Below, one piece after another: positions 5,298 to 61,385 of a stretch of 64,000 nt of DNA. This stretch comes from Polytrichum commune (Eukaryota > Streptophyta > Polytrichopsida > Polytrichales > Polytrichaceae), in contig OX485804.1 in NCBI GenBank assembly GCA_950295325.1, positions 13,640,001 to 13,704,000 of the forward strand. The letters run 5' to 3'. The notes under the pieces were generated by a model that saw only the letters and a program-made list of their open reading frames with translations, was not told the DNA's origin and ran no database searches. A program made the position numbers and the translations under genes. The stretch's first letter is position 1. Each line of letters starts with the position of its first letter.

Positions 5298-5760
5298 TGG
5301 ACCTATGGGAAGAGGCCTCGGATCCGAGGCCTCTTAGTTGTGGGTAGCTTATGCTTGAAAATCAAAATGTTATGTATATTTGAGTTGGCTACTTGTCTTT
5401 GCATTCGGCCATTTCTTGTATGTGTAGTGCATGAGGAGGACCTATAGGAAGAGGCCTCGGATCCGAGGCCTCTTAGTTGTGGGTAGCTTATGCTTGAAAA
5501 TCAAAATGTTATGTATATTTGAGTTGGCTACTTGTCTTTGCATTTGGCCATTTCTTGTATGTTCTAGCATGAGGCGGACCTATAGGAAGAGGCCTCGGAA
5601 CCGAGGCCTCTTAGTTGTGGGTAGGGTGTGCTTGAAAATCAAAATGTTATGTATATTTGAGTTGGCTACTTGTGTTTGCATTTGGCCATTTCTTGTATGT
5701 TCTAGCATGAGGAGGAGGTTTGGAAAGAGGCCTCGGATCCGAGGCCTCTTTTTTGTGGGT
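5298..5760 (+). repeat. 138-bp palindromic tandem repeat
   Basis: Four head-to-tail copies each carry a 22-bp palindrome, GAGGCCTC on both sides of a CGGATCCG core, at 5312-5333, 5451-5472, 5589-5610 (one mismatch in the core) and 5727-5748. The spacing is 139, 138 and 138 bp, and the last copy is partial. Because 138 is a multiple of 3, one + strand frame stays open across three units and would give a 46-residue repeat. I regard that frame as a by-product. The array lies about 240 bp inside the left end of the large transposon, between the terminus and the 3' end of its methyltransferase gene. Confidence 0.9.
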
Positions 5761-5954
5761 AGGATATGCTTGAGAAATCAAAATGTTATGTGTATTTGGT
5801 TTGGCTACTTGTCTTTAGATTGTCTACTAGTTGACGACCACAAAAGTGTAGTGTTATTTGAGAACAACGACAAGATGCATTCAACAAGATAATTGGAATA
5901 TTGAAAACCACACCACACTTTATAAATCCAAATACCAATCAATCAAACCAAAAA

Positions 5955-8900
5955 TCAATCAACAATGACGTTGTCACTACTAGATTCCCTACTTCCAAAG
6001 ATACTCCCCTCATGGCCGCCCTCATCTGAAGAGGAATCTAAGGTATGGCATTCATTATCCACCTCTGCAAGAACATCGAAGAAGTCTAAGGCACGGGGGT
6101 CATAACGTGGAGACGGGGTACTAGCTTTGCTAGGAGAAGGTTGTGCCGCTAGTACCATCGCCATATCATGGGCATAGATTGGCAAAGAGAATCCCTTGGT
6201 AGGCGTACCAAACACATCCGCTCCAAGGCCAAGTCTGAAAACAAGCATGAAAATTGTAAGAAAAAGGATGGAAAATGTAAAAGCTAAGTGGACAAGGAAA
6301 AGAAGCAACTTAGAAGGTCATCATACTCACTTACTGCGAGGACTTTGGCCTCGATCGCTTCAAGGCCGGTGGCCTCTTCTGCGTGCCTTGTGAAGCCTGC
6401 GTGGAAGCAACAACAATGGATGGAGCCTTCACCGCAGGCTTAACACTCTTAAGTGGCTTAAGGACACGGTTGAAGGTGTCCTCGTCCTCCTCAAGAGCAA
6501 CAATATGGCGCCCAAGCTGCTTGCATGTATGGATAGAAGTCCCTGTTGCGGAGGAAATGTTAGCAAAGGAAAAAAAAAAAAAAAAAAAAACTTAGAAATT
6601 GAAAACTTGGATATGATGGCAAGTGAAGTAGGACATACCAACGCCCGCATTAACGTCCACCACAACCTGTCCAATGTCCGTAGTGGCCATTATCAAGGAG
6701 GACATGAAAGAAATATCTTTCTCCCGGGGACCACGCCAAGCTTTGGAGCCGTCCATGAGAGGAGTTACAGTATAATTCATAATCGCATCATCCATATCGA
6801 GCTCAATGCCAAGAGCCTTGAGCTCATTGGCATCGCGAAGGCGGAATGACGAGTGCCGGGGCCGCTTATCAAGGTCGGATCCAATTGTTTTGGTGGCACG
6901 AACAAGTAAGACAACCTGGAAGAGGTTGGTGGTCTTGTCCACATGTTTAGGTGAATGAAGGCGAAGACGGTTGACTCCCAGCCACTCCTTAAAGATCGTG
7001 AACCCAAAAGCAGCGAAGTGGTCTTGAATGCTCTCCTTGAAATCACCATTGTCATCTGCATGAAAGAGGAGGAGAGCTCCATCGTCATGCAGGATCTCAT
7101 CCGCAAAATCGAAGAGCTCACCTAGAAAATCGGTATCCAATGCATTCCAGGAAGGTACACTATAGGAAGGATCGGAGACATTGGGTACAGGCAGGTTCTC
7201 CGGGATGTCGGCAATGACAAGATCAGCCATGCCCACATCTAACCTCGCAACGCCTAGAGCTCTCCGCGGATAGGAGGGTGGAAGAGAAAGAATGAAGTTG
7301 GAAACCTCCTGAAAATGATGACGTTGATGAAGGATAGAGGCATTCAAGATGCATTCTAAAACAACGGGAGGACGCCTAGAAGATGAAAGAATGGGCGGAG
7401 GAGGTGGCCTGGATAGAGTAGGAACTTCACTAAGAGATGGAGTAGATGCAACTGCCGCCTCAGGTGAAGCAGGGGGAGGGGGATCATCCTCCACAGTCTT
7501 GAGCTTCCTCGCGCGCTTCTTGAGTGATGATTCGTCTTGAGTTGCACGCTTCCTCCTCTTGGACTTCTGTGTGTTGGCCTCATCGACAGTCGCAACAACC
7601 TCATCCGCCTCCGGAAGTTGACTGTCAAGGAGAACAACCTCATCGCTTTGAGCAGGAGGCAGGGAAGGTTCTCCACCGGAGAGCCGAATCTTCAACTCCG
7701 CCTCCTCATCCGGTTGCCACGTCCTCTTACATTCCAAGTACCAACAACACTCGCGGAGATGCGGGAGGGAGAAGTTGCGCTTTTGAGCCGGGGAAAATAT
7801 GAAGGTAGGTGAAGAGGAATCAGACCATGCATCAAGAAACGGAGGGAGCTTCTTCAAAGCCTTCTTCTTGAAGAGCTCATGCTTGATGTACCTTGACAAC
7901 GAAGGAGTGAGGCCAATTAGCAACTTAGAAAACAAATGGTTTGAAATAAATGAGGTGAACACAAGATTTTCCAACTAACGTACCTACAGATTAAGCGCTT
8001 GACAATGTTGTTAGCGCCTTTGACATCCTTCCACCACGTCCCCTTTCCGTATATATCTGACCCTGAGAAGTGACCAATGAACGCCTTATCCCAGAGACAG
8101 ATTCGCCACTTCTCCAAGTAATCCGGCAATGAATCAACTTCCACGTCTCCGTCAAGCCCACCCAAGGCATTAAGTATATCGGGTAACTCCTTGACCGCGG
8201 CATCCTCTAGCTGTGGATAAATTCAAGGCCAAGATAAGAATTGGCACAAAAGGAAGAGTTGAAAGGTAAGGATGGATAAGGAGTATAGACGTACCCCTGC
8301 CCAAAACGTAGCTTTATTGAGCCAAGGTTTCAAGGTGTCCTCGCTTGCAGGACTTTTGGGAAACCGGATAGCTTCATGATTGAAACTTCCACTGTTCCAC
8401 CACTTTAACCAACGGACTTTATACTCTGGCTCCACTGCAACTGTGGCAATAAGTTGCAATTTCTCCAATGTCATCTCAATCTTTTGAGAATGGTGGGCGC
8501 TATAATGCCTAGTAATCTGAAACACTTGCAATAAAAAAAAAAACGAAGTAAATTTAAGAATATATTCTTAGAAAGTGCTGCAAAGAATGCTAGCAGTAAG
8601 CCCTCACTTGAGACCTCTCCCATAAGCACATTCAAATCAAATCTATTTCAACTAAAAACTAACCTCTTAGGCCCCCTTCAAACCTCTCTGGTTAGCACCC
8701 TAACCAGAAATTTCTCAAAATACAACCATACAAGCCCTCACAATAGCCCTCAACAATAAGCTAAATCAAATCGATTTCAACAAAATGAATACCTCTAAGC
8801 CCCCCTAAGCCCTCCCCCACAAGCACCTTAGCTAGAAAATGCGAAAAAAAACCATCCCAGCCCTCACGTTAGCCCTCACCTCAGACCAAATTGAAGCAAA

Positions 8901-11900
8901 AAAAAATAACATGAGAGGTCCCCAAAGTGGCTACCCTGGGGCTGTCGGATCCGATAGAGGCCCAGGGCCCTCCCTTTGGAGCTCTCCCACTAGCACCTTA
9001 ACCAGAAATTCAAAAATTAAAACCATACAAGCCCTCACATCAACCCTCATTCATAACCAAAATCAAATCAATTTCAACTAAAAACAAGCCTCTAAGCCCC
9101 CCTTCAAACCTCTCTCATTAGCCCCCTAACCAGAAATTCAAAAATTAAAACCATACAAGCCCTTACCTCAACCCTCATCCATAACCAAAATCAAATCAAT
9201 TTCAACAAATTCGAAGCCTCTAAGCGCCCCTTCAAAGCTCTCTCATTAGCCCCCCAACCTGAAATTTCACAAAATACAACCATACAAGCCCTCACAATAG
9301 CCCTCAACAATAAAGACCTTTCCCATAAGGACATTCAAATTTAATTCAACCAAAACGTACCTCCTCTAGGAACTGTTTTCCAAGGGCGGGGTTTGCGATT
9401 GATTATTGTTTGTTAAACTTGTGCCCAAGTTCCTCAGTCGTCTTCTTAATCACAGCATCCAATACCTCACCCAACTTGTTCCCAGATTGCTCCTCTGGAG
9501 GAACTTCCTCTTTGTAGATTTGGGTTGCCTCATCTACCGCATCGGCTATCTCTTGCTGAACATATATTCAAAATTGTAAGATCATGATTAAGAGTAATGA
9601 ATGCGAAGTAGAAGGTTGAGGAATTTGGAGTGACTTACATTGAAAATGAAGGATACCATAAGGTCTTGGGTCAGCGGGTACCAAAGGCTCTTGGGGCCTC
9701 TACTCTTGCACGCTTGGAATTGCTCCTCCGTCAATAATGGCTGGTAGTAGCTAAGATCATACGAATCGTATTTTTGAATGCGGTGTAGAGTGTGTACGAG
9801 GCTAGTTTTAACGTGAGCGGTCTGGTTAGCCCTATTGCGGTTGAGACAAATGCCATTAGATGCCAATAAAAAAATGAAAGAAAAAACGATTTGAAAAACT
9901 AACATACTTACTTGTTGATGTCGTGCATTGCGTTAAGGACATCCCCACGCCCACCCGTTGTGTTGAGGACAACACATTCTGGGCAACCATGCTTCTCATA
10001 CCAAAGTGCATCGTCCTTGTGATCTGATTCGATATACTCCTTCCACGCAAGCAAGCGGTGGTTACCATCATACACGAAGAACATACATCCACTAAGGCTC
10101 ATCAAGTCCTTATCCGCGCGTAGAAAAGACTTAAACTTATCATTTTCTGCAACCCAAAGCTCTTCCCATTCACGCCTGTCTTTCGCAAAAATGAATCGAT
10201 TATCTCCAGACTCATTTGTAGTAGACACGTACAAAGTGGCAGACCCAGTTCGGTATCCAAATTGAAATGCCGCCATGAACTTTGTAACGTCGCTGCGGAG
10301 GGTTGGGCGAACCAATGGCATGTGAATCAACCTGCAGAGGGGGATTCTCATAGAGGACTTTTCTACCGGTTGTATCCTCATCCCTCAACAACTGAGAAGC
10401 TATCTTTTTTTAAATTGTGGCGAATCCGATACTCCATTGCACGAACACCGACATCCGATTCTGCAGGTGAGACGCAGAGTGGCATCCCGGATGTATAGGG
10501 TTCGCTACTACCTGGTGTAAGCCCAATATTTTTAGCAAGTGACAACGGAGACCCTTGTTCCTTATGCTCCTCAACACTAAGGGATGACTTAGCACCATTG
10601 CGAACCCCAACATCCAAAGACTCTCCATCCCCCACCATCTCAATGATCTCCTGAGAAGCAATTAGTTACAAAGGTGAGGACCAGCCAAATGAACAAAATA
10701 TGCATAAGAATGACCACTTTAAAAGGTTCCGAAGTGGGAACCCATTTGACCTCTCCCAAAAGCAAAGTCAAATAATTTGCAACTAAAACAAACCTCTCAA
10801 GCCATCACTTCAGCCCGCTCCCACTAGCACACTAGTTAGAAAAAAAAAAAAAAAAACCATACCCGCCCTCACCCATAAGCAAAGGCAAATCAATTTCAAC
10901 CAAAGCAAACCTCTAAGCCCCCCTTCAAAGCTCTTCCACTAGCACCTTAACCAGAAATTCCAGAAAAAAAACCCATCCAAGCCCTCACATCTGCCCGAGC
11001 CCATAAGCTAAATCAAATCTATTTCAACAAAAAGAAAACCTCAAAGCCCCCCTAAGCCCTCTCCCACTAGCCCCCTAACCAGAAAATTCACGAAATAAAA
11101 CAAAACAAGCCCACACATCAGCCCTTTCTCAAAGCAAAATCAAATCAATTTCAACTAAAAACTAACCTCTTAGGCCCCCTTCAAACCTCTCTCATTAGCA
11201 CCCTAACCCGAGATTTCACAAAATACAACCCAAAAAGCCCTCACAATAGCCTTCAACCATAAGCAAAATCAAATCAAATTCAACAAACACCAAACTTCTA
11301 AGCCCCCTAAGCCCTCTCCTACAAGCACATTAGCTAGAAAATTTGGAAAAAAAACCATACAAGCCCTCACCTCAGCCCTCACCTGAGACCAAATTGAAAA
11401 TAAATAAATAAATTGAGAGGTCCCCAAGATGGCTTCCAATGGGCTGTCGGATCCGAAAGAGGCCTAGGGCCCTCCCTTTGGAGCTCTCCCACAAGCACCT
11501 TAGCTAGAAAATTCAGAATTTAAAACCATACAAGCCCTCACCTCAGCCCTCATCCATACCAAATTGAAGCAAAAAAAAATATCGTGAGAGGTCCCCAAGG
11601 TGGCCACCAATTGGCTGTCGGATCCGACAGAGCCCTGGTCCAGCAGTGCCTGGGAGTGATTCCAGGGACTGCCAAGGTTCAAACAGGCATAACGTCGTCA
11701 ATACTTGTCTGAATGAATCAAGTGAGGGGTCCATCGGCATCTACGTGAAGCGTAGATGAAGATGGAGTGGTTGGTTGTTCAAATCAGACATAATACAAGA
11801 AAGTTATGATGGTCTGAAGCTGCTGGGTCCCCAAGATGGCTTCCAATGGGCTGTCGGATCCGACAGAGGCCTAGGGCCTTCCCTTTGGAGCTCTCCCACA

Positions 11901-14696
11901 AGCACCTTAGCTTGAGAATTCAGAATTTAAAACCATACAAGCCCTCACCTCAGCCCTCACCTGAGACCAAATTGAAACAAAATAAATAAATTGAGAGGTC
12001 CCCAAGATGGCTTCCAATGGGCTGTCGGATCCGACAGAGGCCTAGGGCCCTCCCTTTGGAGCTCTCCCACTAGCACCTTAACCAGAAATTCAAAAATTGA
12101 AATCAAACAAGCCCTCACCTCAGCCCCCATCCATAACCAAAATCAAATCAATTTCAACTAAAAACAAGCCTGTAAGCCCCCCTTCAAACCTCTCTCATTA
12201 GCCCCCTAACCAGAAATTCAAACATTATACAACCATACAAGCCCTCACATCAGCCCGAGCCCATATGCAAAATCAAATTGATTTCAATAAAATGAATACA
12301 TCTAACCCCCCCTAACCCCTTCCCCACAAGCACCTTAGCTAGAAAATTTGAAAAAGAAAACATCCAAGCCCTCACATCAGCCCTCACCTCAGCCCAAATT
12401 GAAGCAAAAACAATATCTTGAGAGGTCCCCAAGGTGGCTACCCTGGGGCTGTCGGATCCGACAGAGGCCCAGGGCCCTCCCTTTGGAGCTCTCCCACTAG
12501 CACCTTAACCTGAAATTCAAAAATTAAAACCATACAAGCCCTCACCTCAACCCTCATTCATAACCAAAATCAAATCAATTTCAATAAAAAACAAGCCTCT
12601 AAGCCCCCCTTCAAACCTCTCTCATTAGCCCCCTAACCAGAAATTCAAACATTATACAACCATACAAGCCCTCACATCAGCCCGAGCCCATATGCAAAAT
12701 CAAATCGATTTCAATAAAATGAATACATCTAACCCCCCCTAAGCCCTTCCCCACAAGCACCTTAGCTAGAAAATTTGGAAAAAAAAAAACATCCCAGCCC
12801 CCACGTCAGCCCTCACCTCAGCCCAATTGAAGCAAAAAATATATATCTTGAGAGGTCCCCAAGGTGGCTACCCTGGGGCTGTCGGATCCGACAGAGGCCA
12901 GGGCCCTCCCTTTGGAGCTCTCCCACTAGCACCTTAACCTGAAATTCAAAAATTAAAACCATACAAGCCCTCACCTCAGCCCTCATCCGTAACCAAAATC
13001 AAATCAATTTCAACAAATTCGAAGCCTCTAAGCCACCCTTCAAAGCTCTCTCATTTGAACCCTAACTAGAAATCTCACAGAATACAACCATACAAGACCT
13101 TACATCAGCCCGAGCCCATAAGCACAATCAAATCTATTTCAACCAGATCTAACCTCTCAAGCCCCCCTTCAAAGCTCTCTCATTAGCAACTAACCAGAAA
13201 TTCCAGATAAAAAACCATACAAGCCCTCACATCAGCCCTCACCCATAAGCAAAATCAAATCTTCTTCAACCAGAACTAACCTCTCAAGCCCCCCTTCACA
13301 GCTCTTTCGTTTGAACCCTAACTAGAAATCTCACAAAATACAACCATACAAGCCCTCACATCAGCCTGAGCCCATGATCAAAATCAAATCTATTTCAACA
13401 AAAAGACAACCTCTAAGGCCCCCTAAGCCCTCTCCCACAAGCACATTAGCTAGAAATTTTAAAAAAAAACCCATGCCAGCCCTCACGTCAGCCCTCACCT
13501 CAACCCAAATTGAAGCAAAAAAAAAAAACTTGAGAGGTCCCCAAGGTGGCTACCCTTGGGCTGTCGGATCCGACAGAGGCCAAGGGCCCTCCCTTTGGAG
13601 CTCTACCACTTGCACCCTAAACAGAAAATTCATAAAATCTAACCATACTAGCCCTCACTTCAGCCCTGTCCGAAAGCAAAGTCAAATGGATTTCAACTAT
13701 AGCCAACCTCTAAGCCCCCCTTTGGAGCTCTCAAACTAGCACCCTAACCACATATCACATTCAAATCTTATTCAACCACATTATACCATTCTACTTAAAA
13801 ACAAAACAAAAAAACCTCTCAGACCTCACTTCAAACCGCTCTCAAAGGCACCCTCAAATTAAATTTATACCACATAATAAACATTTGCGAGGTTCTTTAG
13901 TGGGCTCTCCACGGTCTGTCGGATCCGACAAAGCCCCAGGGCACTCACTTCGGACCTCTGTAAGGAGGACCCCAAAATCGGCTCAAAAATTACCTCTTAT
14001 ACCTCACTTGAAAACTCTCACAGGACGACCCCCATATCATATTACCACAAAATGAATCTTTTAGACCTCACCTCAGACCTCTCCACTGGGCTACCACTGC
14101 CCTTCCCTCGAGTCTCTCCCCCTCTCCAACTCGTGGCTGCAACCCTGACCGCTGAGTGAAATCCTCGTATGCAGAGGAAAACCCTAGTTCTAAGATTTGT
14201 TGTAATGCGAAGAACGATGGTAGGTTAATGTTGCGGCAGTCTTGTTCCCTTCCCCTTCCGACGGTGTCATTGTGACCACCCTTTGGATGGTCAGTGCTTC
14301 GACAAGCCCGCACTTGCTGCCTTCGCTAGCTCACGATGACTACCCCTAATTTCTAGTGCATATATGTTTTCATCGACTTGAGGTTCATACCTGGGTCTCG
14401 CAAATTCTCGATAGATCATGTGATTTTGGGAACTCCACTTGTCTGGTCGTACCCACTCCAACTCCCTTCCTAGCAATGTCTTCACCACTCTGAGTCTGGC
14501 TTCTCCGTGTACGAGACCTTGACCGTGTGTGGTCTGGGGAGAATTCCAATGCCTTCACTGTGTTGTTTAAGTTATCATATGGTTGTTTTGGCTGTCTCAT
14601 CCTAGATGCCCTTATTTGCTTCCTGTTTGAGAAAAATGCCTTCCTCCTCCTCTTCGCCTTTGGTTTCACTAACTCTAGTGGCGAAGACCCTGTCAT
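5955..14696 (-). CDS. ParB-like domain + permuted DNA-methyltransferase-like protein, nine exons, three lesions
   Basis: My splice model (- strand, all GT-AG and in phase) is 14696-14391, 10650-9912, 9831-9639, 9555-9361, 8516-8295, 8210-7984, 7891-6639, 6542-6335 and 6234-5955, about 1206 residues if the lesions are ignored. Exon 1 is the least certain: it is a basic, nuclear-signal-rich leader joined across a 3.7-kb repeat-filled intron. Exon 2 has the ParB/sulfiredoxin-type core FVYDGNHRLLAW, preceded by PLVRPTLRSDV. Exon 7 has nuclear-type basic runs (KSKRRKR), a Pro-rich linker, and the motif IV position DLVIADIPEN followed by LGELFDFADEILHDDGALLLF. Motif I, VVDVNAGVGTS, spans the exon 7/8 junction and is followed by GRHIVALEEDEDTF. 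Motif IV before motif I is the beta-class N6-adenine/N4-cytosine methylase order. DIPE replaces the catalytic (D/N/S)PP(Y/F/W), so activity is doubtful. Lesions: in-frame TAA at 9403-9405, one extra base in the A7 run at 10405-10411 and one in the C5 run at 10339-10343 (gene strand). Confidence 0.75.
8560..9350 (-). repeat. Intronic minisatellite, first block
   Basis: It lies in the intron between the exons at 9361-9555 and 8295-8516 of the methyltransferase-like gene. Units of roughly 110-130 bp repeat phrases such as AAGCCCTCAC, CAAATCAATTTCAAC, CTCTCTCATTAGC and ACCAGAAATTC. One copy contains the palindromic core TCGGATCCGA (8945-8954). It is the same family as 10700-14060. Confidence 0.85.
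10700..14060 (-). repeat. Intronic minisatellite with recurring CTGTCGGATCCGACAG palindrome
   Basis: About 3.3 kb of diverged units repeat phrases such as CATACAAGCCCTCAC, CAAATCAATTTCAAC, CCCCCTTCAAA and CTAACCAGAAATTC. TCGGATCCGA, usually inside CTGTCGGATCCGACAG and followed by AGGCC-AGGGCCCTCCC, occurs at 11447, 11618, 11854, 12025, 12452, 12882, 13564 and 13919. By my model the block forms most of the first intron of the methyltransferase-like gene. A 180-bp non-repeat segment (about 11640-11820) interrupts it. The CGGATCCG core is shared with the 138-bp array at the left end. Confidence 0.88.
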
Positions 14697-15489
14697 GTAA
14701 CTGACCCGACTTCACAAATTCTACACTGCCCTCCTTTGTGAACATCTCCCTATCAATGTATGTGTCTCGCCTGGGTTACATCTACACTTATATTCCATCT
14801 CATAACCTCCTTCACATAATCTCGATGTATGGTGATTACAGTCTAGTTGCTATAAACATATACGGAATCATAAAAAGGAACACTTATAGAATGAACACCG
14901 ATGTTTAATAACATGTATTGAAATCATCCAGGAAAGATCTAAATTTAAGGAGCATCATGCTTTATAAAAATAATGGATGATAGTACACATGACAATACAT
15001 ATTTCAAACGAAACTAAATGAAATAAATAATCTGTATAGCCATAAATTGACGATCCTCTTCCAACTAAACTAACCTATTCTGGCTTAAAGGTGAATGCTC
15101 TACCCTTGCCCACTAATAAAGAAACACTTTCCTTTAGGGTGTCCCTTACATCCACTAAATGGTTCACGTGGTCTGGTGTATTAATAAATTCGCGAGTCGG
15201 CATCCAACCTCATTGTTTGGTTTTGATATATCTGGTTTGGATTGGCATATGATCATGACTAACTTAAGTAAATGCTGTAGTGCATTTTCAATTCTTATTC
15301 ACATTGCTATAATGAATCGGCTTATTATTCCCCTACTAATCCAAGTCCCCGCCGTCATTCACAGATCCCATCTTGCCATGGCCTTCTAATCACAACACTA
15401 TATACACCTCCCCACTTTGTGCTAATCCTTAAGTCCATTGCCCATTTGGCCACACCCTTCTGTGTACTCGCATTTACATTCCTTCTACA
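14697..15489. promoter_or_regulatory. Divergent intergenic region of the large transposon
   Basis: This is the 0.8-kb space between the proposed start of the methyltransferase-like gene (- strand) and the transposase start codon (+ strand). The two genes are head to head, so this should hold both promoters. It is AT-rich in the middle (about 14830-15060). I cannot place a TATA box or transcription start with confidence. Confidence 0.5.
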
Positions 15490-18400
15490 ATGGCCACCAT
15501 CCGAGCACTGCACCATTCCATCCCCCTTATGATCCCTCTTGGAGATGATGGTCTAGCCAAAGTCGTGGAGTCGTTCCTTAGTCTGAGGTTTAGATTCCAC
15601 CCAGACTCAATTCATGTCGAGGAAGAGGTCTTTGATGACAACGGTGACTTGAGTCACACTGTCCTTCAGATGTCCTTTCGCATTGACGATGGTAGGGTTT
15701 GGTTCTTGCTCCCTCCAAAGTACAAGGCCATAGGCGTCACCGAGTCGGAGATGGCCACCACTACTGTGTTGCTAACACCAGGCGTGTCCCTCACCTCCAC
15801 CACGCAGGCTCCTCTTCTGGCAACGGTCAAAAAGGAGCCCGACATCCAAGAGGTTACCTTGCTCAGTGATGACTATGATGATGATGTGCCACCTGCCTCT
15901 GACTTTGCCTCACTTACCCCACCTCCATCGCAGGATCAACCCTTCATCAATCCTCTCAGGATTCCACACTCGCCTACTGTGAGTCAACCACCTACTTCCA
16001 GACCCCCAGTTCACCCAGGTGTCTCCATAGATCGTCCCAGTGTTGTCCAGCAATTGAAGTTGCTTGCAACCCTACCAGGGTCCAAGAACATCCTCAAGAG
16101 TATTGATTATGAATTTGTTAGGCATGAGAAGGTTGACTTCCTCCCATCTGTTTTTGACGGCGACGTCATCTTTGAGTTCCCTCCTCTGGGAGCTGATGCT
16201 CCCCATTCCCATGCTAGACTCATGTTCGGAATGGACAAGCGTTTCGACGGTCATGCTTGGTGTAGGACAAAGACGTCTAACATTACCAATGATCTCGGCT
16301 TGACCTTCCAGTTTTCATGTTGTGTTGGCCATCTCTGCTGTCATAACGAGGGATGTGATTATCTCAACCGCCCCAATCGAGCCACTGACGTCAACGAGAC
16401 CGAATGGGAAGGTTGTACCGCCTCACCCTTCACCGCAGATGCTGATCCCCCAGCTGAGTCATCTCTCGTTTGTAAGGTCTGTAAAACACCACCCTATTGT
16501 CTTGATACTTGCCAGGCTAAGATGTACTATGTTCTTGGCAGAGGTGACATGACCCGTGCATGCATCCATATGGGTCATCACCATCACCCCGTTTCGCAAG
16601 GTGTCTGTAGAGAGTCTAAGGTCAAAATTCATGATCTCATTGGTAGAGAGGTTGAAAGGACTCCCACCGCCACCAACTCTGCCATTGCATTGGCTGCAAG
16701 TAAAGAGTTCCTGGCCAAGTATCTTCTACGCACGGGATCTGATCCCAATAAAGTTATGGACCTGGAGTCCATGAAGTTTGTCATGGACAGGTACCAACAC
16801 CTCAGCACCCCGAGTATTCGAAACACTGTCACTTCCTTCAAGCGCATTGGGCGAGGGGGGATCATTGACAGCATCACCGGACTCAAAGGTCATAGCAGTT
16901 GGCCCTATGTGCAAGAAAACAAATTCCCAGGCCAAGGAAAGCTATTGGAGAAAGTCTATGTGTTCAAGATGTCTAAGGTGGGCCCTGGCTCTAGAGTTGA
17001 CATTGTCAGGAGAATGCAACCACACGGTGATTTGCAGGATGCTTGGGTCATGTTTGACCATGTCAAACGTGTCAAGGGGTGGACAACCATGGCTTGCCAT
17101 GTCTATGACTCGGCCTACTGCCGGGTTATGACTATTGCAGTATGTGATATGCAGTCTGAGGATGTCACGGCGCAAAGCCTTCTTTGGCATGGGCTCAATG
17201 AAGTTATGCTCAGACATGGCATTGCTAAAATTAACTTCAAAGGGTTCATGGCGGACAGTGCACAGGCCAATTGGAATGCAGTTAGGATTATCTATGGCAG
17301 CGGTGATCCCAAGGTTCCTATGGAGTCTCGCGAGAGGACATGTCTATTGCATTGGACAGTGTCTATGGAGCGCCACACTGCCACCCACATCAAGCCCGAC
17401 CTCCAACAACAACACAAGTTGTTATGCAAGCAGTACAAGGATGCCAAGACTCCCGAGCAGTCCGAGTCCCGTTATCTTGCCATCCGGGCATGGTGGCTTT
17501 CCTCTGGAGCTGCATCCGAGGAAGGAATCAAGGACCTTGATACATGGCTTGCATTCTGGCATTTTCGTTACCGTCAATGGGGTGGTTTCATGCAACTAGT
17601 GAGTACCCACCCACTTTCTATTTCACTTTTTGGTGTCAACTTTTTTTTTGGTTTTTTGGTGTCAGTTTTGGCTTTTAGCGTGTTTTTGTGCAAGGCGTAC
17701 TCACCACATTTTATTGACTTCTCTCAGAATTTCACAGATTCTGAGTTGGCAGAGACGCCATCTTGCAACCTCTCTGAGACAGTCCATAACAAATGGCTTC
17801 AGCAGTCTGGAAACCGTGGCTCTGATCTATATGTTGCGACCGTGGATGATTTTGTGAGGGCGTTCATGCAATGTACGAACTACTACGCCTACTTGAAGGG
17901 TGAACGGTCTGGCACTGGCCCAGGAAAAGAAGAACTCCGCCTTCGTGCTACACAACGATCCGGTGACGCCAAGAGAATTGTTGCAGCCCTCGAGCACATG
18001 CCTGGAGCAGAGCATTGGTGCACCCGCAAACCCCAACTCGAAGGAGAGGAGGTCTTTGGCACCACCAAGCGCAAACTTGATATGCCCCCTGGTTCTGAGC
18101 AGGATTCACATAGACCCGACAAGGTCAGCTTCTCTCATCCACGAGTGAGCACTAGGTCAACCAAGGCACACACTGATTCCGCCACACCATCAAACCTGCC
18201 CCTCACACAATCCCCCGAGAAATCGATTCCACAACGGGTCACCCACGTCAATAACATTCAGGAGACCCACTGCGATGTCTCCAAGTGGCACATTTCTAGA
18301 TTGCCCAAGACTTCCGCCAAGGCCTGCTTCGCCATGCAAGCTCGCACAAAGACCAAGTGCACCCAGAAGATCGTTCGGCATGGTAAAAGTACCCCAACTC

Positions 18401-19137
18401 CTACGTACACCGGCTACATGCGCGACTACAAGAAGAACAAGGAATTCTTGACACAGTTCTTCTTGTGCAACGACGACATTGAGAGATGTGTCAAAGGCAC
18501 TAGGAGGAAGTGGGTGCAGCACCGTCCGGATGTCCCGGACGTCTGGCCTGTCCTCACTGGGACAAACCTCACTCTCCAGGAGGTTCTGGCCCTTGAAGAA
18601 GGGGGATTCCAACTTCAGCAGCGTCAAGATGTGTCACCCATAAGACTCTTCGGCGACTCCTCCAATGTTGCTTCATCCATGGCCGAACTCCCTACCCCGG
18701 CCCAAGCCAATCAATACCCTACGCTGAGGTTTGGAAAAAAGATCCGGCGCAGTAACAACGGACCATGCGTCCAACAACGCAACAAGTGGGAGTCAGCCCT
18801 CAACGTCGACGGTCAAATCACCTCCGTCACAATGATACCTCACCCAGGGATCAGGTGCATCATTTTGTTCCAGTCCCGAAAGAAGGCTAAGGTTGAAGAG
18901 TACCGTATCACTATCAGCACCTTCCCGTCGTGCACGTGCCCGGATTTCGTGGAGATGTCAGCAAGAGCACTTGGGAAGCGGCGCCCTTGGGTGAACTGCA
19001 AGCACTTGTACTTCATCTTCCGTGTGACCTGCAACTTGGATCAATACCAAGACACTTTCATCCATGCTCCGAGCCTTAGTTTCAATGAAGTGAAGCACCT
19101 CCTCAAAAGTGGCATCATGAAGCATGTGGGACCTTAG
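15490..19137 (+). CDS. Mutator-like transposase with SWIM zinc finger
   Basis: The open frame is 1215 codons. It very probably contains one in-frame intron, 17599-17727 (129 nt, donor CTA^GTGAGT, acceptor TCTCAG^AAT, T-rich). Removing it leaves about 1172 residues and eliminates an out-of-place hydrophobic stretch. Residues 1-270 are variable and Pro/Ser-rich. Cys/His clusters at about 277-372 (CCVGHLCC, CKVC, CIHMGHHHHP) look like a DNA-binding zinc region. The transposase core runs from about 505 to 650, with Asp523 or Asp540 as first acidic residue, FMADSAQANWNAV with Asp589, and the CLLH motif at 618-621, matching the D..CxxH layout of MULE transposases. A basic, Ser/Thr-rich linker follows. 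The SWIM finger is Cys1148-Thr-Cys1150 with Cys1170-Lys-His1172. The third acidic residue was not located. It would catalyse excision and insertion of the 5061-19757 element. No stop or frameshift was seen. Confidence 0.82.
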   Translation: MATIRALHHSIPLMIPLGDDGLAKVVESFLSLRFRFHPDSIHVEEEVFDDNGDLSHTVLQMSFRIDDGRVWFLLPPKYKAIGVTESEMATTTVLLTPGVSLTSTTQAPLLATVKKEPDIQEVTLLSDDYDDDVPPASDFASLTPPPSQDQPFINPLRIPHSPTVSQPPTSRPPVHPGVSIDRPSVVQQLKLLATLPGSKNILKSIDYEFVRHEKVDFLPSVFDGDVIFEFPPLGADAPHSHARLMFGMDKRFDGHAWCRTKTSNITNDLGLTFQFSCCVGHLCCHNEGCDYLNRPNRATDVNETEWEGCTASPFTADADPPAESSLVCKVCKTPPYCLDTCQAKMYYVLGRGDMTRACIHMGHHHHPVSQGVCRESKVKIHDLIGREVERTPTATNSAIALAASKEFLAKYLLRTGSDPNKVMDLESMKFVMDRYQHLSTPSIRNTVTSFKRIGRGGIIDSITGLKGHSSWPYVQENKFPGQGKLLEKVYVFKMSKVGPGSRVDIVRRMQPHGDLQDAWVMFDHVKRVKGWTTMACHVYDSAYCRVMTIAVCDMQSEDVTAQSLLWHGLNEVMLRHGIAKINFKGFMADSAQANWNAVRIIYGSGDPKVPMESRERTCLLHWTVSMERHTATHIKPDLQQQHKLLCKQYKDAKTPEQSESRYLAIRAWWLSSGAASEEGIKDLDTWLAFWHFRYRQWGGFMQLVSTHPLSISLFGVNFFFGFLVSVLAFSVFLCKAYSPHFIDFSQNFTDSELAETPSCNLSETVHNKWLQQSGNRGSDLYVATVDDFVRAFMQCTNYYAYLKGERSGTGPGKEELRLRATQRSGDAKRIVAALEHMPGAEHWCTRKPQLEGEEVFGTTKRKLDMPPGSEQDSHRPDKVSFSHPRVSTRSTKAHTDSATPSNLPLTQSPEKSIPQRVTHVNNIQETHCDVSKWHISRLPKTSAKACFAMQARTKTKCTQKIVRHGKSTPTPTYTGYMRDYKKNKEFLTQFFLCNDDIERCVKGTRRKWVQHRPDVPDVWPVLTGTNLTLQEVLALEEGGFQLQQRQDVSPIRLFGDSSNVASSMAELPTPAQANQYPTLRFGKKIRRSNNGPCVQQRNKWESALNVDGQITSVTMIPHPGIRCIILFQSRKKAKVEEYRITISTFPSCTCPDFVEMSARALGKRRPWVNCKHLYFIFRVTCNLDQYQDTFIHAPSLSFNEVKHLLKSGIMKHVGP

Positions 19138-26119: not shown

Positions 26120-27560
26120 TGATCAAGTGCACCGCCTCGTTTACAATATGATGTAAAAGCTATGTACATTGCAATCTACGGAAAAGTTTGAATAGATGGC
26201 AACACACTTCGTGAAGTAATGTCCAACATTGGTGTTGAACAAGGATGTCCCCTCTCCTCTCCCCCACACTATTTGGCTTGTACATCGATGAACTTGAAAA
26301 ATGTTTGGACAAGATCGACATAAATTCTATGTGTTTATTTAACATTGTGACAGTGGTTGCCATTCTTCTTTACATTGATGATGTTTTTTCTACTTTTTAA
26401 GTCAAGGGCATGCCTACAAAGACTCTTGAACAAGCTACATGAGTTTTGCACTTCTTCTAGTTTTGAAGTCAATATATTTGAAGACTAAAATCATGATGTT
26501 TGGCCGCAACAAAAGGAAATTAAGCCAATAGGCATTTTACCTAGACAAGGACCAAATTGAGATCACCCATGAATACAAAAACATTGGGATTGATTTTTAG
26601 TCACATGGATACTTTGAGCCATCTAGTAAAAGGTGAAGAAATGCATGTATGAAAGCATGGATGGACACTTTAAGGAAAATAATATTAATCGGAGTCACAT
26701 GTTGGGGACTCAAATTCCACCTATTCAAGGTTTTGGTGCTTCCAACTTTCACATATGGCATTGGAATTTGGGGAGGCGACTTGGAAAACTCCCATTGAAA
26801 GGTTTTCGAGAAGGGCATAAAGATGCATATGATGTCTCATGTCAAAGTGTGTCCTTTGACTACCTATCATATTTTGTTTGATGAATTTGGAGAACTTCCC
26901 ATATAATTATACACTCTCAAGCTTATTACAGGCTTTCAACAATGGCTTGCCCGCATACCCCCCTATTGGTAAATAAGTAAATCAACCTCGCTCTCCCAGG
27001 ACCTGGCCAAACACGGACTTAATACCTGAAACAAATCGACAACCATGTAGAAGACATCATGGGGTCTCTTTCATTGGGAAACCTATGTCAACCCAACCAC
27101 ATTAAAACAAGCATTTGATATATCAAGGAGGTTGTTCTTGCTGAAGAGTGGAACTCTTTCCATCTCTCACAGGAGAAACTAGATTACCTCCACCTCGAGG
27201 GTTTTGTTGAGTACATATGTGAATTGTATTTGAAGGAATCATTGGCACCACCAAAATGCAAGATCATTGTTGCCTATTGCACCTCAAACCATAGACTTGG
27301 CATTGACATTGGATGATGGAGCACTATCCCTATCTCTAGAGATATTAGACTATGCCATTTTTGTCCTATAATGTAATTGAAAATAGGCACATTTCATGTT
27401 GAAGTGTCATTGTATAACCCATTAGGGATAAATGTCGTCATTATTTGAGAATGTAGGTTTAGGGAACCTCGAGTATTTCTTTCAATTAGCCCATTAAGTT
27501 GACATTAACCTCTATCTCACAAAGGTCACTACATCTCCGCCACTCTAAAGAAGTACACTA
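26120..27560 (+). pseudogene. LINE reverse-transcriptase pseudogene
   Basis: Conserved reverse-transcriptase pieces can be read across shifting frames: GVEQGCPLS near 26232, the catalytic box LYIDDV (tyrosine-Ile-Asp-Asp) at about 26371-26385, then YGIGIWGGDLEN and MKMHMMSHVKV-type segments near 26750-26850, FGELP near 26890, and a C-terminal CKIIVAYCTSNHRLGIDIG segment near 27260-27316. Several stops and frameshifts separate them. This order is that of the C-terminal half of a non-LTR retrotransposon ORF2. The 5' part (endonuclease) is absent. Confidence 0.75.
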
Positions 27561-28340: not shown

Positions 28341-29095
28341 GTGAACAAACATACATACACACATACATAAATACGGCAGCTTCTATTTTAATATGCTGCT
28401 ATTGCAATAATTTAACTGCTTTTGGTATTTTTGTAAGTAGTAGCTTGAGCCTATTTTTTGACAACAATGTTTTCAAGGCCCAAAATAGAGTCGGTGACAA
28501 TTGTGTGGAGCATTGTCTATTCTGATAGATGCTCACTACCTATTTCTTAAATGCTACAATATGATTCGAAATGCCAAAATATCTTGCTCACAACAATTTG
28601 GAACCAATCTAAATTCAAGTGGTGGGATGTTGGGCTAATAAAGGAAAGGAGTGCATTTTCAATGTTGTGGAATAGAAGTTGGCAAGGTTGAACGTGACAG
28701 TCAAGTGGTCAATTGCTTCATGTGCTTTGGCGTTGGCCTGTCGGCCTTCTGTCTCGAAGAAAAGAAAAAGATTGAACACAACACTTGAGCCTTGGGCTCA
28801 ATCGCATCCAATGTTGGCACCATGCGGTTTTTTACAGTTGGGTTTTTCATGGTTTTTTTTTTTTTTTTTTAATAAAAGAACCCAATCATCTGAGGTCCAA
28901 CAAATCCAGTTTTATTTGGTTTTATTGCAAATAAGTTGAGATTATAGGGCAGAGGGCCCCAATGTCCGCCAATGGTAGTGTCGCGTGCTCGAATGAAACC
29001 ATGGTTTTATTCACAAAAAAACCCCATTTTTTTTTTGCATTAAAACCAAAACCTAATGCATCGGCCGGAAAAAAAAGTTGGGTTTTTTCCACCCT
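28341..29095. other. Intergenic, poly-T/poly-A tracts
   Basis: It contains a long T run near 28853-28870 and A/T homopolymers near 29020-29080. A segment near 28790 (GCCTTGGGCTCAATC) matches, inverted, the right end of the adjacent foldback element, so an element may have been split by an insertion here. No gene. Confidence 0.45.
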
Positions 29096-29435
29096 TGATC
29101 AAATCTATGTTCGGCTGGGCCCCGCCCCTCCCACGCCTCCTTTATTGCCGGTCTTCCTGTTTGCACCTACGTGGGAACTCCTCCTCAAGGGGTAGGAATG
29201 TGACAATATCCGGTCAAAATTACAAATATTCAAGTTGACATCACGGTCATTATTCCCAAGTTGATTGATGGAGTTCCGTCACATGCCAAAGGAGCTTAAT
29301 GACTTAAGTGACCAGGTATCGTCACATTGGTCCCCAACGAGGAGGAGTTCCCATGCATGTGCAGGCAAGAAGACCCTGCAGTGAAGGAGGCATGGGAGGG
29401 GCAAGACCCAACCGAACACAAATGTGATTGAGCCC
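29096..29435. mobile_element. Foldback MITE, CTCCCACGCCTCC family, copy 1
   Basis: Long imperfect inverted arms: the left arm has TTCGGCTGGGCC, CCCCTCCCACGCCTCC and GTGGGAACTCCTCC; the right arm carries their reverse complements. The centre (ATTCAAGTTGACATCA, TTCCCAAGTTGATTGATGG) is shared with the copies at 29500 and 36621. It encodes no protein. Confidence 0.75.
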
Positions 29436-31388: not shown

Positions 31389-34221
31389 ATAGTTGAAATC
31401 TGCACACACCCACCAACCCCATCACATCCAACACAACTGACCACTCCCGTACACATAAAAAACAACCCAATAAAATACTCTATACACTCAATAATAGACC
31501 ACTGCATAAAACCAACTACAGATAAATACAAAATTATAAAAAACCAACATATATACCTATGTCAATGGGTACTACCCAATGGAACAATATATATCAAAAA
31601 CCTTCCACAAAGAGAATTATTCCCCTACAATCTCCCAAGAGTCATACAACACAACTCAAACTTAATACTCACATACTACACCAAAACACAACATAAAATA
31701 TACAAAAACATCATGAACGGAAATGACATGTTCACCCAAAACAAAGACCCCAAGCACGTCTCTCCTCCCCTAAACATCCCACTCGTGAAAATCTCAACAC
31801 ATGAATGTAACCCTGAAAAAGACATCAACACTAATACAAACAAAATCCAAATGCAAAATGATTATGCTCATATCTACGATGAAACAGGTAAACGCATTAT
31901 CACCATTCCACACAATAGACTTGTATGGCTATGGAACCAATACAATCGTACATTACATCAACCACACGACCTAATACCCCCTACTCAAACATTTGAAATC
32001 GAAATAACCTGGCTATATCAAACATACAAACACAAAATACCGAAAAATAATCCATTAAAAAACGCACACCATTCTATGCCCAAAACACTATTAGACTACA
32101 TCACAACATCCTTTGAAATCACACACTCTTATTTCTCATCCCCAGTCACATGCTCAACCCATCTAACAAAATTCTTCTCACCATTTCCTAGAGATAAAAT
32201 CTTCGGGTCCATCGGTAACGCATTCTCACACAAGTGGCAAGGAATAGGATACGCCCACCCACACAATGAAATTGAAGCCCAAAAAGCAATCCATTGGGCC
32301 AGACTAGCAGCGAAGCAAGATCCATACACCACCACCATACTTATCATCCCATACCCGAATTGGTACCAGAACTTTACACCACATTTAGGTCCCTTCCCAG
32401 ACACACATGTAATCACTCAAATACCAGTAGACACCACCAAATATGAAGAACCTACAAGACCACAAGAATCCAATGAGCCACGTGTAGAACCACTCACCAT
32501 AAGAATCCTATGCGTACATCACCAAAACAATAGTATCAGCAATATAGAACAAATGAACACAATAAGAAATATATGCAACAACCTGAACATATCCCGCACA
32601 ATCACCCAAATTGCCCCCCCTACCCCACAAAATCTAGAAGTCAACAAATGTAAAACATGGAATACCCTCACCTACCCAAATCCAAGCACACACCTACATA
32701 ATACAATCCCACAAATTCCCAACTATGAAAACGAAACACCACTCAAATTCCCCTCCAAATATTGCTTCTACACAGATGGATCCTTTAACCCCCCCAAAAA
32801 GATAGGAGATAGTTGGCGGAGAGAAGAAGTTGGATACGGTATATATAACCAAGAAAAAATTATCAAACTTGCACTACGACTACCAGGCCTACAAAACATA
32901 TTTCGAGCAGAACTAATGGCCATGCACCATATCCTTAAAATAATAATGAAATGACTTCCCAAATGAACCAGCACATATTTTCACAGACTGCCTTAACGGC
33001 CTATATGTAATCAAAACCCAAATAAAACACCCCACACTACACAATAACCACCCCGATAAAACTATCTTAGAAGAAATAGTGAACTTTCTTACACAGAGAA
33101 CCCAACCCACAACACTATACAAAGTAAGAGCACATGCAAACATCAAAGGTAACGAAGAAGCCGACACACTTGCTAAAAAAAGGACATCAAAAGAACACTA
33201 CAATGCCTCTCAACCATACGAATTTGGCCACTCAACGCCGTACTACCAAAGAGACACATGGCCATCAATGGGAACAACCCCAGACAAAGGACCCATTAGA
33301 TTCCTAGAAAAACATCTAGTAAAGTACAATATGAATATAAATTTAGAATTGATCCCTGTAAAATACCCCAACATAGATAAATGGATAGCCAATGATAAAA
33401 TAGATAATGAACTATCAAATAAATTTTGGACAAACAAAAACATAACTGACTCCCAAAAAACATGTCTTCTAAAAGACACGGTCAATACATGGGAAATGCC
33501 AGGAAACATTTGTTCTTCGGAAGAGAAGCTTTTCCATCAATTACATGCCCCATATGTGACTCAACAGACCCGGATACATGGCTGCATGTACTTCTAAAAT
33601 GCAAACAACACCACATTCATGCCCTCCGTACCAAAAGACACAATAAAACAATATGGGAATTAAGAAAACTTAAAGTGTCATCAAAAAAAGTCAAGATGTT
33701 ATATTCTCATGAATGCAGGAACATTCAATAATAAGCCCCCAGAAAACACGGTCCCTTCATGGATATTACAGTGTATATGTGGCCAACAAAGATGTCATTG
33801 CAATGCCATATTCAAACCAGATCTTCTATGTGTAAAAGGACTACCATATCAATCCTCACCCCCAATAGAACCTAATGACAACCTAACAATACAATTCATT
33901 GAATTTACATACTGTAACGATAGAATACATGATGAAACTATAAACCGTAAAATAGAAAAATATAAACCATTAATGGACAATATTGCCAACAAAGGTTGGA
34001 AGATAGACCCACTAATTGTCATCACTGCAGGCGCTAGGGCTGCCACACATATCCCCTCTATGGATAACATTGAAACAACATTTAAAACCCCTAAGCAGAG
34101 CATCAAGAACACATTTGAGGCAATTAATGTCATCGCTATACAATATGCTATGTCCATAATTATGCACAAAAGAAGGATAGAAAATAACGAGCCAATACCA
34201 CTTGACACACAACTACCTTAA
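31389..34221 (+). pseudogene. 5'-truncated retroelement: MTase-like region, RNase H, PD-(D/E)xK nuclease
   Basis: One reading path opens after a TGA at 31386 and continues to TAA at 34219-34221 with three frame changes. The first part (31389-32954) ends inside RNase H. It holds FFSPFPRDKIFGS, WQGIGYAHPHN and ILIIPYPNW, in the order of Dam-type N6-adenine methylases, with YAHPHN where NPPF/Y would be expected (tentative). RNase H has all four acidic residues: YTDGSF, FRAELMA, IFTDCLN and NEEADTLAKK. A zinc motif follows (CPIC, HVLLKC, HHIH, RHNK), then a nuclease-like end with KPDLL, QFIEFTYCND and KYKPLM, the REL/PD-(D/E)xK layout seen at the C terminus of several non-LTR retrotransposons. 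Frame changes: TGA at 32952, near 33480, and an A7 run near 33676-33690. No reverse transcriptase is present, so the 5' part is lost. The + strand is strikingly A+C-rich. Confidence 0.75.
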
Positions 34222-36620: not shown

Positions 36621-36947
36621 CTAGATCATATCTTCATTCGGCTGGGCCCCACCCCTCCCACGTCTCCTTTGCTGCTTCATCTTCTTGTCTGCACTTGTGT
36701 GGGAACTCTTATTCGTTGGGAACCAATGTGATAATACCCCATTGAAATTACAAATATTCAAGTTGACATCACTTTCATTATTCCCAAGTTAATTGATGGA
36801 GTTCTTTCACATGCCAAAGGAGCTTAATGGCTTAAGTGACTGGGTATTGTCATATTGGTTCCCAACAGGGAAGAGTTCCCACGCAAGTGTGGGCAGGAAG
36901 ACCGGGCAGTGAAGGAGGTGAAGATGTGATCTAGCCCTGGGCCTCAA
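36621..36947. mobile_element. Foldback MITE, CTCCCACGCCTCC family, copy 3
   Basis: The left arm starts CTAGATCATATCTTCATTCG and the right arm ends GAAGATGTGATCTAG. Inverted similarity covers roughly 120 bp (GTGGGAACTCTT, GTTGGGAACCAATGTGA) around a centre shared with copies 1 and 2. Confidence 0.75.
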
Positions 36948-38384: not shown

Positions 38385-41300
38385 ATGTCGCGGAAAGGAG
38401 TGAGGATGAAGGCGCTGGTGGAGCTCTGCGATGTGCTGGCAGAGGATCCCACTCTGTCCACAGAAGGCGTGGGGTTATTATGGAGCCAGTGTCCCCCGAT
38501 TGAGCTTTTCTCCGAACGACATTCGAATCTCACAGCCCGCCACGTCAACGGGATTCTGGCCTCCGCGAGGTACCTGTCGCGAACCGAGCAACCGGAGAAT
38601 CGACAGGAGTTTTTGAATCTCATATTCGAGTTCATCAGCTCAGTTCCTAATATTTCAAGGAAGGACGGGTGGCCGGTATCGTTCACACCGGAAGCGTACG
38701 ACGTTTACTTCGTTGAGCTTCTAGGTTATGTATCCGAGGTGGCTAAGAAATGGCCAGCTGTCACAAGTGATATGAGCAATGTGTTCACGGATTTTATCTT
38801 AAGCATCACTGAGGAAAGAGATGAAGACAATGTGGAGCCTCTCATATGGGCTCGCCATGCTGCAATTAGATCACTACTCGTGGCGTTGGCGGGGAACTTT
38901 CCAGCTTTAGATGGCCCTGACGCAGAGAGTTTGGCGAAATGCTTACTACAACACTGGTTGTCACTGCCTCAACCTTCGGTAATGGAGTTATCAGGTCGGA
39001 GTGTGTCAGCTCAGAGTTCGCCTTTAGGGTTTTACTCGTCCTCTTCCAATGGTAACTCTAGGTCTATGAAGGATTTCAGGCTTGCGCAAGGATACATGAG
39101 CGATGGCGCTGCGGATTCCAGGATCCTAAGCTCTGCGGATGATAGCCCTCAGTACGAAGCCAACACTTTCTTCACTCCCGCTTCTACACCTTCTAGGGGA
39201 ACTCCCAGAAGAGAGTTTGATGGGATCGGGAACGGGAGTTTTTTACACATGAATGGCAATGGGAGCAGGGTAGTTAGTGGAGTTTACAGTGAAACTCGTG
39301 AAGCAAGTAGACAATCCCGACAGCTATTGAACTCTCTGGAAGCAGAATCTGTGGAGTCGCTAGAATGGCACGAAGTTGGGTTCAGATTGTTTGTACAATT
39401 ACTGGAGAAGGCTGAGTTGGATGAGGACTCTGTCGCCCAGTTAAGATCCATGGCAACAGGTCAACTTGGAGCGCTTCTACCTCTTTTGAAGGCATGCCAC
39501 TCACCTGGTATCTCTCTTCAGTTCTCAAGTTATATTGTTATTTTTATTGCGAGGGTTATATTCTCCACACATGAAATGAGTTTTGAGAAACAATTGAAGA
39601 CACTGGTGATAATTGAAGTGGATAAAGTCAGTCAGTGTGATCATTAACAGATATACATCCTCGAGGTCCATTACCTATAGTCTCGAAGTAATCACCCGGG
39701 AGAAATCTATCGAAAATAATTTAATTTACACCATCAATCAGCATGAAAGTGTAGTGAGCACTAATCTTGATAACTCATATAAAATGCCATCTTGGGTATC
39801 TCTCGTCAGTTCTCAAGTTTATTTACTATTTTCATGTGAGGGCTTTATTTCCCTCATATGAGATGAAGTTTGAGAGACTATATGAGGCATTGGTGAATAT
39901 TGAAGTTGATCGATTCAGCCATGTGATCATGAACAGATATACATCCTTGAAGTATATTATCTGCAGTCTCAAATGTAATCAAATGCACTTCTCAGCTTCT
40001 ATATGACAGAAAGTGCTATTAGCATTGGATTCAGCTGTTGTTTAACCTACTGAATTGCTAAGTGGTACACTGATTATCCCAATTAGTGTGTGTTACCATT
40101 CGGAGTTATGCACTGCTATAATTATTAAATGAGAATGGAATATTTTACCAAGCAAAATAATTTATGTTCTATAATATCTGAACAACCTATTGAACTTTCC
40201 TTAGTAAAGATTGAACTCCTGAATGAGACATTATTGTACTGTGTTACTCCAAATAGTAACACACACTAGTTGGGATAATCAGTGTAGTAACAATCGAATA
40301 AAGAAGTCATTGTAGGATTATCCAAAAATTACAACTAATTGACACTAGTTGGAAAGCAGCAAGGTTTCAAAATGCCAATGGTCTTTATTCCAGTAGGTTC
40401 AATATTAGGTTGGTGGAATACTTTGTTATGTTTGTGCATTATTTCAAGTATGCACTTCCAAATCTCTGTTCTTCTTGTGCCTATATGCACTTTAAATCCA
40501 GTCAAAGTGTGCTCATTTAAGTAAGTTTGTTCATATTTCTGGACGTATTGGATAAAAACCAAGTGGTTCTTTTCTTTCAAATGTCCTCCTGAATTCGAAA
40601 CTTGTTGTGACCTATTCTTTATGTCTTCTCAGAGAAGTTTGCCCCCCTTTTTTTTTTCTTCAATGGGGTTCCACTGCTCCGAAGGAGTTTAGATGAAAGT
40701 TTACCTCAAAATCTATTGGTCGCTGACTCTCACTGTTTTTAAGCAGCCTCAAAATTGTAAAACAGGGCTTCTGTTTTTTTGGAAGTTTTGAGGTCCTCAG
40801 GCTTAAAGTTGTTGTGCTGACTGGAATGTGCTGGGATCTGTGTTGTAAACCCTTCTACAGATTCGGAAAAGAGAGTGGCCCGTGGATGGGATGCCACTTT
40901 TGGCTAAAATGAATATGAAGCTGCAAATTTCACAAGCAGCAGCTGCTGTGACTACCCTGCTACTAAAAGCAGAATCACATGGGCGGCCTTCAAAGAGTCC
41001 TGTGGATGGTAGGGTGTTAAAAGGGCCTACACGGGAGACCCTATCTCTTCTAATGGATGTTGCAGATGCATGTATTGCATCCCCTTGGCGAAGATTGAGA
41101 TCTTGCGAATCACTGTTTGGAACTGTCCTTTCTGCTGTATCTGAGTTGGGTGCATTACAAGGGAAACAGACACTCAGGGTCATTCTTTTACGCATCAAAA
41201 CACTCGTGGTGTCTACTTGTGCACAAGTAAGCTTATATACATCTTATTTTCTTTATAGAGGATTGAATGTGCTTGAGGCGTTCGTTAAGTTTGAATTGGT

Positions 41301-61377: not shown

Positions 61378-61385
61378 CTATAATG

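Follow-up and report, generated by a model that had tools for sequence, protein, structure and literature searches.

A ParB-like and methyltransferase-like fusion gene of Polytrichum commune, probably carried by a large DNA transposon and surrounded by copies of a short palindrome

We have analysed a window of 64,000 nucleotides of Polytrichum commune (contig OX485804.1, positions 13,640,001 to 13,704,000), which contains a fusion gene, a divergent transposase-like open reading frame (ORF) and tandem repeat arrays. The gene lies on the minus strand and is described by a splice model of nine GT-AG exons, running from 10650 to 5955 and open over 1036 codons to the stop. Exon A (10433..10650) holds the probable start methionine at about 10638 (MVGDGESLDVG...). 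Exon B (9912..10331) carries the ParB/Srx-like region, with a box I-like PLVRPT, the box II DGNHR and a box III-like NAMHDIN; this region ends in exon C (9639..9831). There follow exon D (9466..9555), the 3' end of which is uncertain, exon E (8295..8516) and exon F (7984..8210). Exon G (6639..7891), for which 33 relatives were found and aligned, encodes a conserved N-terminal block, a variable linker and, of the methyltransferase region, motif IV through the beginning of motif I. Its motif IV is degenerate, with DIPEN (7195..7209) replacing DPPYN. The remainder of motif I is encoded by exon H (6335..6542), which continues into an acidic motif, GTSIHTCKQLGRHIVALEEDED, and exon I (5955..6234) includes the stop codon. 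Two peptides that a first-pass annotation of this DNA had pointed out were confirmed, namely FVYDGNHRLLAW, which contains the ParB-like box II, at 10078-10043 within exon B, and VIADIPEN at 7218-7195, both on the minus strand. DVNAGVG/TS, also described there, spans the 6639/6542 junction and GRHIVALEEDED comes after it. The linker, at about 7400-7750 on the minus strand, separates the conserved CWYLECK block from motif IV; it is lysine/arginine-rich, proline-rich and highly variable among relatives, and it could hold a nuclear localisation signal.

The first-pass annotation had begun the coding part at 14696. This was not borne out, as the gene calls of the relatives start in or shortly before exon A, and we have rejected a coding start at 14.7 kb on that ground. 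Several of them (e.g., P0035 and P0045) begin at a methionine matching that at about 10638, one (P0034) begins about 30 residues further up, and none of the gene calls seen among the 15 relatives fetched reaches the 14.7 kb stretch. Regarding the exon junctions, the sequence of relative P0100 is continuous across B/C without an intron, the Pfam PF01555 and DpnA matches described below cross G/H, and D/E admits more than one phase-consistent donor/acceptor solution. The P0100 read-through and the domain matches across G/H led us to reject a splicing artefact as the source of the fusion.

The A/B junction has a different explanation. The region of exons A and B forms a single uninterrupted stretch in 14 of the 15 relatives, with gene calls of 191-272 residues (the fifteenth, P0100, is a partial sequence). 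When the window is viewed in three frames, the frame of exon A meets a stop where that of exon B begins (10370..10390, minus strand), and the splice model bypasses this frame change by a 101-base intron that deletes conserved sequence. Because the relatives show exons A and B as one coding stretch, the window copy is probably frameshifted near 10380, which is simpler than an intron, and we have rejected the A/B gap as an intron on the same ground. Thus, of the nine in-phase exons described earlier, the open 1036-codon splice stands and the A/B intron probably does not. The frame change suggests that the window copy is nonfunctional; intact copies exist among its relatives.

By its motifs and profile matches, the C-terminal half is a relative of the permuted beta-class amino-methyltransferases. 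The spliced product matched the Pfam N6_N4_Mtase profile (PF01555), the check named in the first-pass annotation, with an E-value of 6.5e-5 over residues 845-897, at 23.4 bits, which falls below the curated cut-off of 26.7 bits. The same region matched DpnA (E 1.3e-4) and CcrM (E 3.5e-4) in the PDB. The best PHROG match was phrog_498 (E 4.3e-7), in which residues 49-270 of a 285-residue query were aligned to positions 218-410, and it extends from motif IV to motif I. With motif IV preceding motifs X and I, and with Pfam, PDB and PHROG profiles all significant, the earlier proposal of a permuted beta-class methyltransferase of the N6A/N4C type was supported, with this half as a relative of that class. 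Among the exon G sequences of single relatives, most of them rows without exon H, PF01555 was found in 1 of 34 (E 0.16). The PDB search with the methyltransferase-exon alignment returned unrelated chains, CheA among them (best E 0.026), but no methyltransferase, and the whole-length protein search had none of its 8000 scored candidates at E 0.001.

The state of motif IV bears on what this half might do. The pattern D-x-P-[ED] is present in 29 of the 34 aligned sequences (the window and 33 relatives), 19 of which read DIPEN. The catalytic [DNS]PP[YFW] is found in none of the 34, and position 4 of the motif is never aromatic. Since relatives of 30-50% identity also retain DIPENLPVP, DLPEGLPVP or DLPDGLPVP, the degenerate motif is a trait of the family and not damage to the window copy. 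Ordinary base methylation is made doubtful by the absence of the aromatic residue from all 34 sequences, and the missing catalytic signature is the reason why we have filed the protein as a PF01555 relative and not as an active member. On these grounds, canonical base methylation by this protein is unlikely, although it might carry out a different chemistry. The first-pass annotation had offered either a non-5mC methylation or a DNA-reading role; the former, taken as ordinary methylation of another base, found no support in motif IV, and we prefer the latter. As for the SAM-binding motif I, DVNAGVG is present in 12 of the 34 rows and near variants in others, with its first glycine changed to serine or alanine in distant relatives and the stretch missing from 7 rows. 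Most close relatives retain DxxxGxG; an acidic residue comes after it (LEEDED).

The N-terminal half was assigned by its conserved boxes. The search for exon B relatives found 75, and in the 58 aligned rows DGNHR and NAMHDIN are each conserved in 52 and PLVRPT in 50. By their position, we read these as ParB boxes II, III and I, respectively. The family fits the box II pattern G-x-x-R-x-x-A, and phage ParB-like ORFs carry the same box II, the search for them having been seeded with that motif. Profile searches gave a different picture. The Pfam ParB_N profile, named as a check in the first-pass annotation, was not matched in any of the Pfam searches, that of the spliced product included; PDB searches found no ParB, and NCBIfam returned an unrelated weak family and nothing else. 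PHROG_1033, a ParB-like family, was matched by more rows than any other family (30 of 58, best E 0.038), the window's own row not being among them. Comparison by hhalign with the ParB domains of phages (45 sequences) aligned 14 columns around box II at a probability of 3%, and column-shuffled nulls reached the score in 3 of 200 cases for the ParB comparison and in 5 of 200 for that of the methyltransferase. The structure model of the ParB-like half was poor (pLDDT 46), with a strand, GNHR and a helix in the expected order. A query with the F-plasmid ParB returned only one phage record and one viral contig.

We have also compared both halves with a pool of viral ORFs, assembled from 58 stretches recovered by a degenerate ParB-peptide pattern and 68 recovered by a second pattern. 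This pool comprised 5716 ORFs, of which the 57 with the first ParB peptide were tagged. The profile of the ParB-like half had L082 as its top match (E 0.0048); none of its best 32 matches was a tagged ParB fusion, and for 31 of these 32 the locus had been picked through the box II motif in the first place. As no ParB profile match was significant, we call this half ParB-like and not a ParB/Srx member, the ParB/Srx assignment being likely. The claim of a ParB-type core fused to a methylase is therefore supported in its conserved boxes and its methyltransferase match, whereas no single profile test recognises a ParB.

The methyltransferase half gave a clearer connection to phages. With this half of the plant protein as the phmmer query, the top two viral ORFs were tagged, with whole-sequence E-values of 5.8e-5 and 2.0e-4 that were weak per single segment (best 0.087 and 0.15). 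Ranks 3 and 4 were untagged (L091 and L115, 2.6e-4), and ranks 5 and 6 were tagged. The alignment with the best match, L016, covers motif IV (TDPPYNV vs. ADIPENL), a subsequent HAD-x-NG stretch, and motifs X and I. This ORF carries both PF02195 and PF01555, and its residues 28-416 match phrog_498 with an E-value of 1.9e-167. As L016 is ParB-fused and matches phrog_498, the nearest phage family of the methyltransferase half is itself ParB-fused. This agrees with the earlier proposal of a bacterial or phage-type source, unrelated to the plant 5mC enzymes. Searches for relatives in viral contigs, in phage records and, with the ParB alignment, in prokaryote genomes were unproductive.

The surroundings of the gene point to mobility. 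A transposase-like ORF (15433..19137, plus strand) lies divergent to the fusion gene and ends in a C-terminal SWIM-like CxC...CxH motif. It matched the Pfam SWIM profile only at E 0.076, no convincing Pfam family was found for the whole ORF, and the best PDB match had an E-value of 0.65; we treat it as a putative transposase. In the methyltransferase alignment, 23 of the 33 relatives are 79-99% identical to the window over the part covered, and such close relatives may be several copies in one genome or several species. Because of the many close relatives, the probably broken window copy and the divergent transposase-like ORF, we consider that the gene is probably carried by a large DNA transposon. 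A search of the window for terminal inverted repeats found none, and no ends of the element were located. The description of an ordinary plant gene was thus abandoned, in view of the close relatives and the adjoining transposase-like gene. The gene might instead belong to a domesticated host family, descended from an ancient capture that now serves the plant, in which case the transposase-like gene would lie next to it by chance. Such a family would account for motifs kept in relatives at 30-50% identity and for element ends that were not found, and several species could explain the relatives. We nevertheless hold domestication very unlikely, given the 23 relatives at 79-99% identity, the probable frameshift and the publication of the same architecture from algal transposons (as reported in PMC12477816).

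The window holds further features outside the fusion gene. At 31389-33597 on the plus strand, an RNase H domain (E 1.1e-6), seemingly split over two frames, is immediately preceded by a PCIF1_WW-like region (Pfam E 2.3e-9). PCIF1 is an mRNA cap methyltransferase; this locus may be the decayed remains of a retroelement that had captured a domain. Pieces of a phosphatidylinositol 4-kinase gene extend over about 10 kb (~40849-50383, plus strand), with three PI4K_N matches, the best at E 4e-46, and one PI3Ka match; this gene marks the genome as eukaryotic. Dispersed repeats about 82% identical pair 29094-29390 with 36621-36918 and 26735-26920 with 61193-61378, and nested tandem repeats of about 40, 61, 101 and 222 bp occupy 2071-2627.

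Around the fusion gene, a single palindrome recurs. The 10-bp word TCGGATCCGA has 12 exact copies in the 64 kb, all within 5318-13928, and the commonest other 10-bp palindrome of the window has two. Allowing up to one mismatch gives 14 sites against 0.50 expected, a number reached by none of 100 shuffles, and one of the 14 (6875) falls in coding sequence. Array 1 contains three of the exact copies and the D/E intron one (8945..8954); the other eight fall in the stretch that separates exon A from the transposase-like ORF. Array 1 (5299..5816), downstream of the stop codon, consists of four units of a 138-bp tandem repeat; three of them contain the 26-bp palindrome AAGAGGCCTCGGATCCGAGGCCTCTT and the fourth has it with one change. 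The eight copies on the other side are in the array 2 region (10750..13928), which contains tandem repeats and lies between exon A and the divergent ORF. Thus, a short motif occurs in tandem repeats in the flanks of the gene and in an intron, and we infer that the gene, the transposase-like ORF and the arrays belong to one element.

The two arrays share the palindrome and their repeats are otherwise unrelated. When one array 1 unit was compared by BLAST with a 440-bp stretch of array 2, the 10-bp core was the best match (E 0.085), and in the two arrays perfect palindromes of 16 and 26 bp surround this core. As the shared word is itself a perfect palindrome, chance explains the match poorly, at the ~1e-4 level by a rough estimate. 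Palindrome copies inside tandem arrays are not independent, and the alignment of array units was anchored on the palindrome itself, which accounts for part of its 13-bp invariant run. In a comparison that did not rely on this alignment, the array 2 units found by their left flank contain the exact palindrome in 8 of 8 cases; of those found by the right flank, 8 of 21 contain it and the other 13 lie in a shorter repeat unit. In array 2 the palindrome was not clearly more conserved than its flanks (column shuffle, P 0.08). A search for a 20-bp palindrome pattern in viral contigs found none.

Based on this distribution, TCGGATCCGA could be a target site of the fusion protein. Sub-terminal repeats bound by the transposase are common in DNA transposons, and the arrays might be such sites, unconnected with the ParB-like and methyltransferase-like protein; array 1 does lie on the outer side of the fusion gene. 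We regard such transposase sites as rather unlikely here, since the copies are found around and inside the fusion gene and the window has none beyond 13928, on the 3' side of the transposase. The lack of copies on that side also counts against the proposal made below.

We propose that the phage-derived fusion is a transposon accessory gene, encoding a non-methylating DNA-binding protein that acts through TCGGATCCGA, and we see this overall reading as evenly poised between right and wrong. In this view, the gene and that for the transposase-like protein of 15433-19137 would belong to the same large DNA transposon, the former as an accessory gene descended from a ParB-methyltransferase fusion of a phage or prophage. 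The ParB-like half, keeping its nucleotide-binding box, would serve as a DNA-binding clamp; the methyltransferase-like half, its catalytic DPPY gone, would more likely read or hold DNA than methylate bases. The protein would be targeted to TCGGATCCGA in non-coding sequence around the gene, namely the 3' flank, one intron and the intergenic region of the divergent genes. There it might act against host silencing, in the manner of VANC in VANDAL elements; alternatively, it might control the element's own transcription or transposition. Both the binding to TCGGATCCGA and the biological effect of the protein are proposals. A more specific version, in which a phage ParB-methyltransferase became, within a plant transposon lineage, a non-methylating clamp that loads at the TCGGATCCGA core as a parS-like palindrome and protects or activates its own element, thereby forming a eukaryotic anti-silencing device, is put forward tentatively, as a fairly improbable one.

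Alternatively, the protein might both bind and methylate (4mC/6mA) its own transposon DNA by means of a non-canonical active site. Self-modification has been suggested for the Ectocarpus protein in PMC12477816, TCGGATCCGA contains GATC, a plausible adenine target, and the DxxxGxG of motif I, after which an acidic residue comes, persists in most close relatives. It is set against a motif IV in which the DPPY aromatic is absent throughout and D-x-P-[ED] prevails, and against the bdelloid N4CMT, in which replacing SPPY by APPA abolished activity, as reported in PMC8885841. Taking these points together, we judge self-modification distinctly unlikely and retain the DNA-reading role.

Fusions of this kind are known from phages and bacteria. 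According to PMC12704722, the ParB-CTPase fold of phages frequently occurs joined to an N6N4 methyltransferase, and the commonest eukaryotic representative of the fold is sulfiredoxin; a ParB-methylase of Bacillus cereus nicks DNA, as noted in PMC5512222. The phage fusions of phrog_498 are like the window gene in having ParB first and the permuted methyltransferase second. L016 keeps DPPY within about 419 residues, whereas the window gene lacks DPPY, contains introns and has its two halves separated by several hundred residues. If our proposal is true, it shows how a selfish element of a complex eukaryote can make a regulatory device out of a phage DNA clamp.

Closest in architecture is the Ectocarpus Sola1-1 element, of 21.5 kb, which encodes a 1104-aa protein with ParB and methyltransferase domains on the strand opposite the transposase, as described in PMC12477816; that article refers to Iyer et al. 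2011 and Petroll et al. 2025 on transposons of green and red algae. The window gene shares with it the two domains, a similar length (~1036 vs. 1104 aa) and a position opposite a transposase-like ORF. It differs in its host, and the transposase superfamily is not necessarily the same; its degenerate catalytic motif and palindromic arrays have no counterpart in the available text on Ectocarpus, which mentions neither the motif state nor arrays. ParB plus N4/N6 methyltransferase proteins as transposon accessories are therefore already published from algae and the kind is not new. Among the titles and abstract openings listed in our literature searches, none dealt with the family in land plants. 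The window adds two points, namely that the sampled family has lost the catalytic signature and that a candidate target site surrounds the gene itself. The algal accessory genes have been suggested, in the text available, to bind and modify their own DNA with no candidate site named; a concrete candidate site, together with the family-wide loss of the signature in the sampled family, separates "binds" from "modifies". The bdelloid N4CMT is likewise a permuted amino-methyltransferase of bacterial or phage type captured by a eukaryote. Unlike the window protein, it keeps SPPY, has a chromodomain and reportedly helps to silence transposons, and no ParB domain is mentioned in the available text of PMC8885841.

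A further comparison, by way of working, is with the VANC proteins of VANDAL elements, to which the window protein is, to our knowledge, unrelated. VANC21 binds a nine-base motif that its own element carries as tandem repeats, both within introns and upstream (PMC5735166). The window locus resembles this arrangement in its short repeated motif, and the way of working is the one proposed here. Anti-silencing has been demonstrated for VANC, whereas for the window protein it is a proposal; the VANC21 motif, YAGTATTAY, is non-palindromic while TCGGATCCGA is palindromic. If the proposal is true, the fusion protein would show that element-specific control of the VANC kind can be reached by a second, unrelated route.
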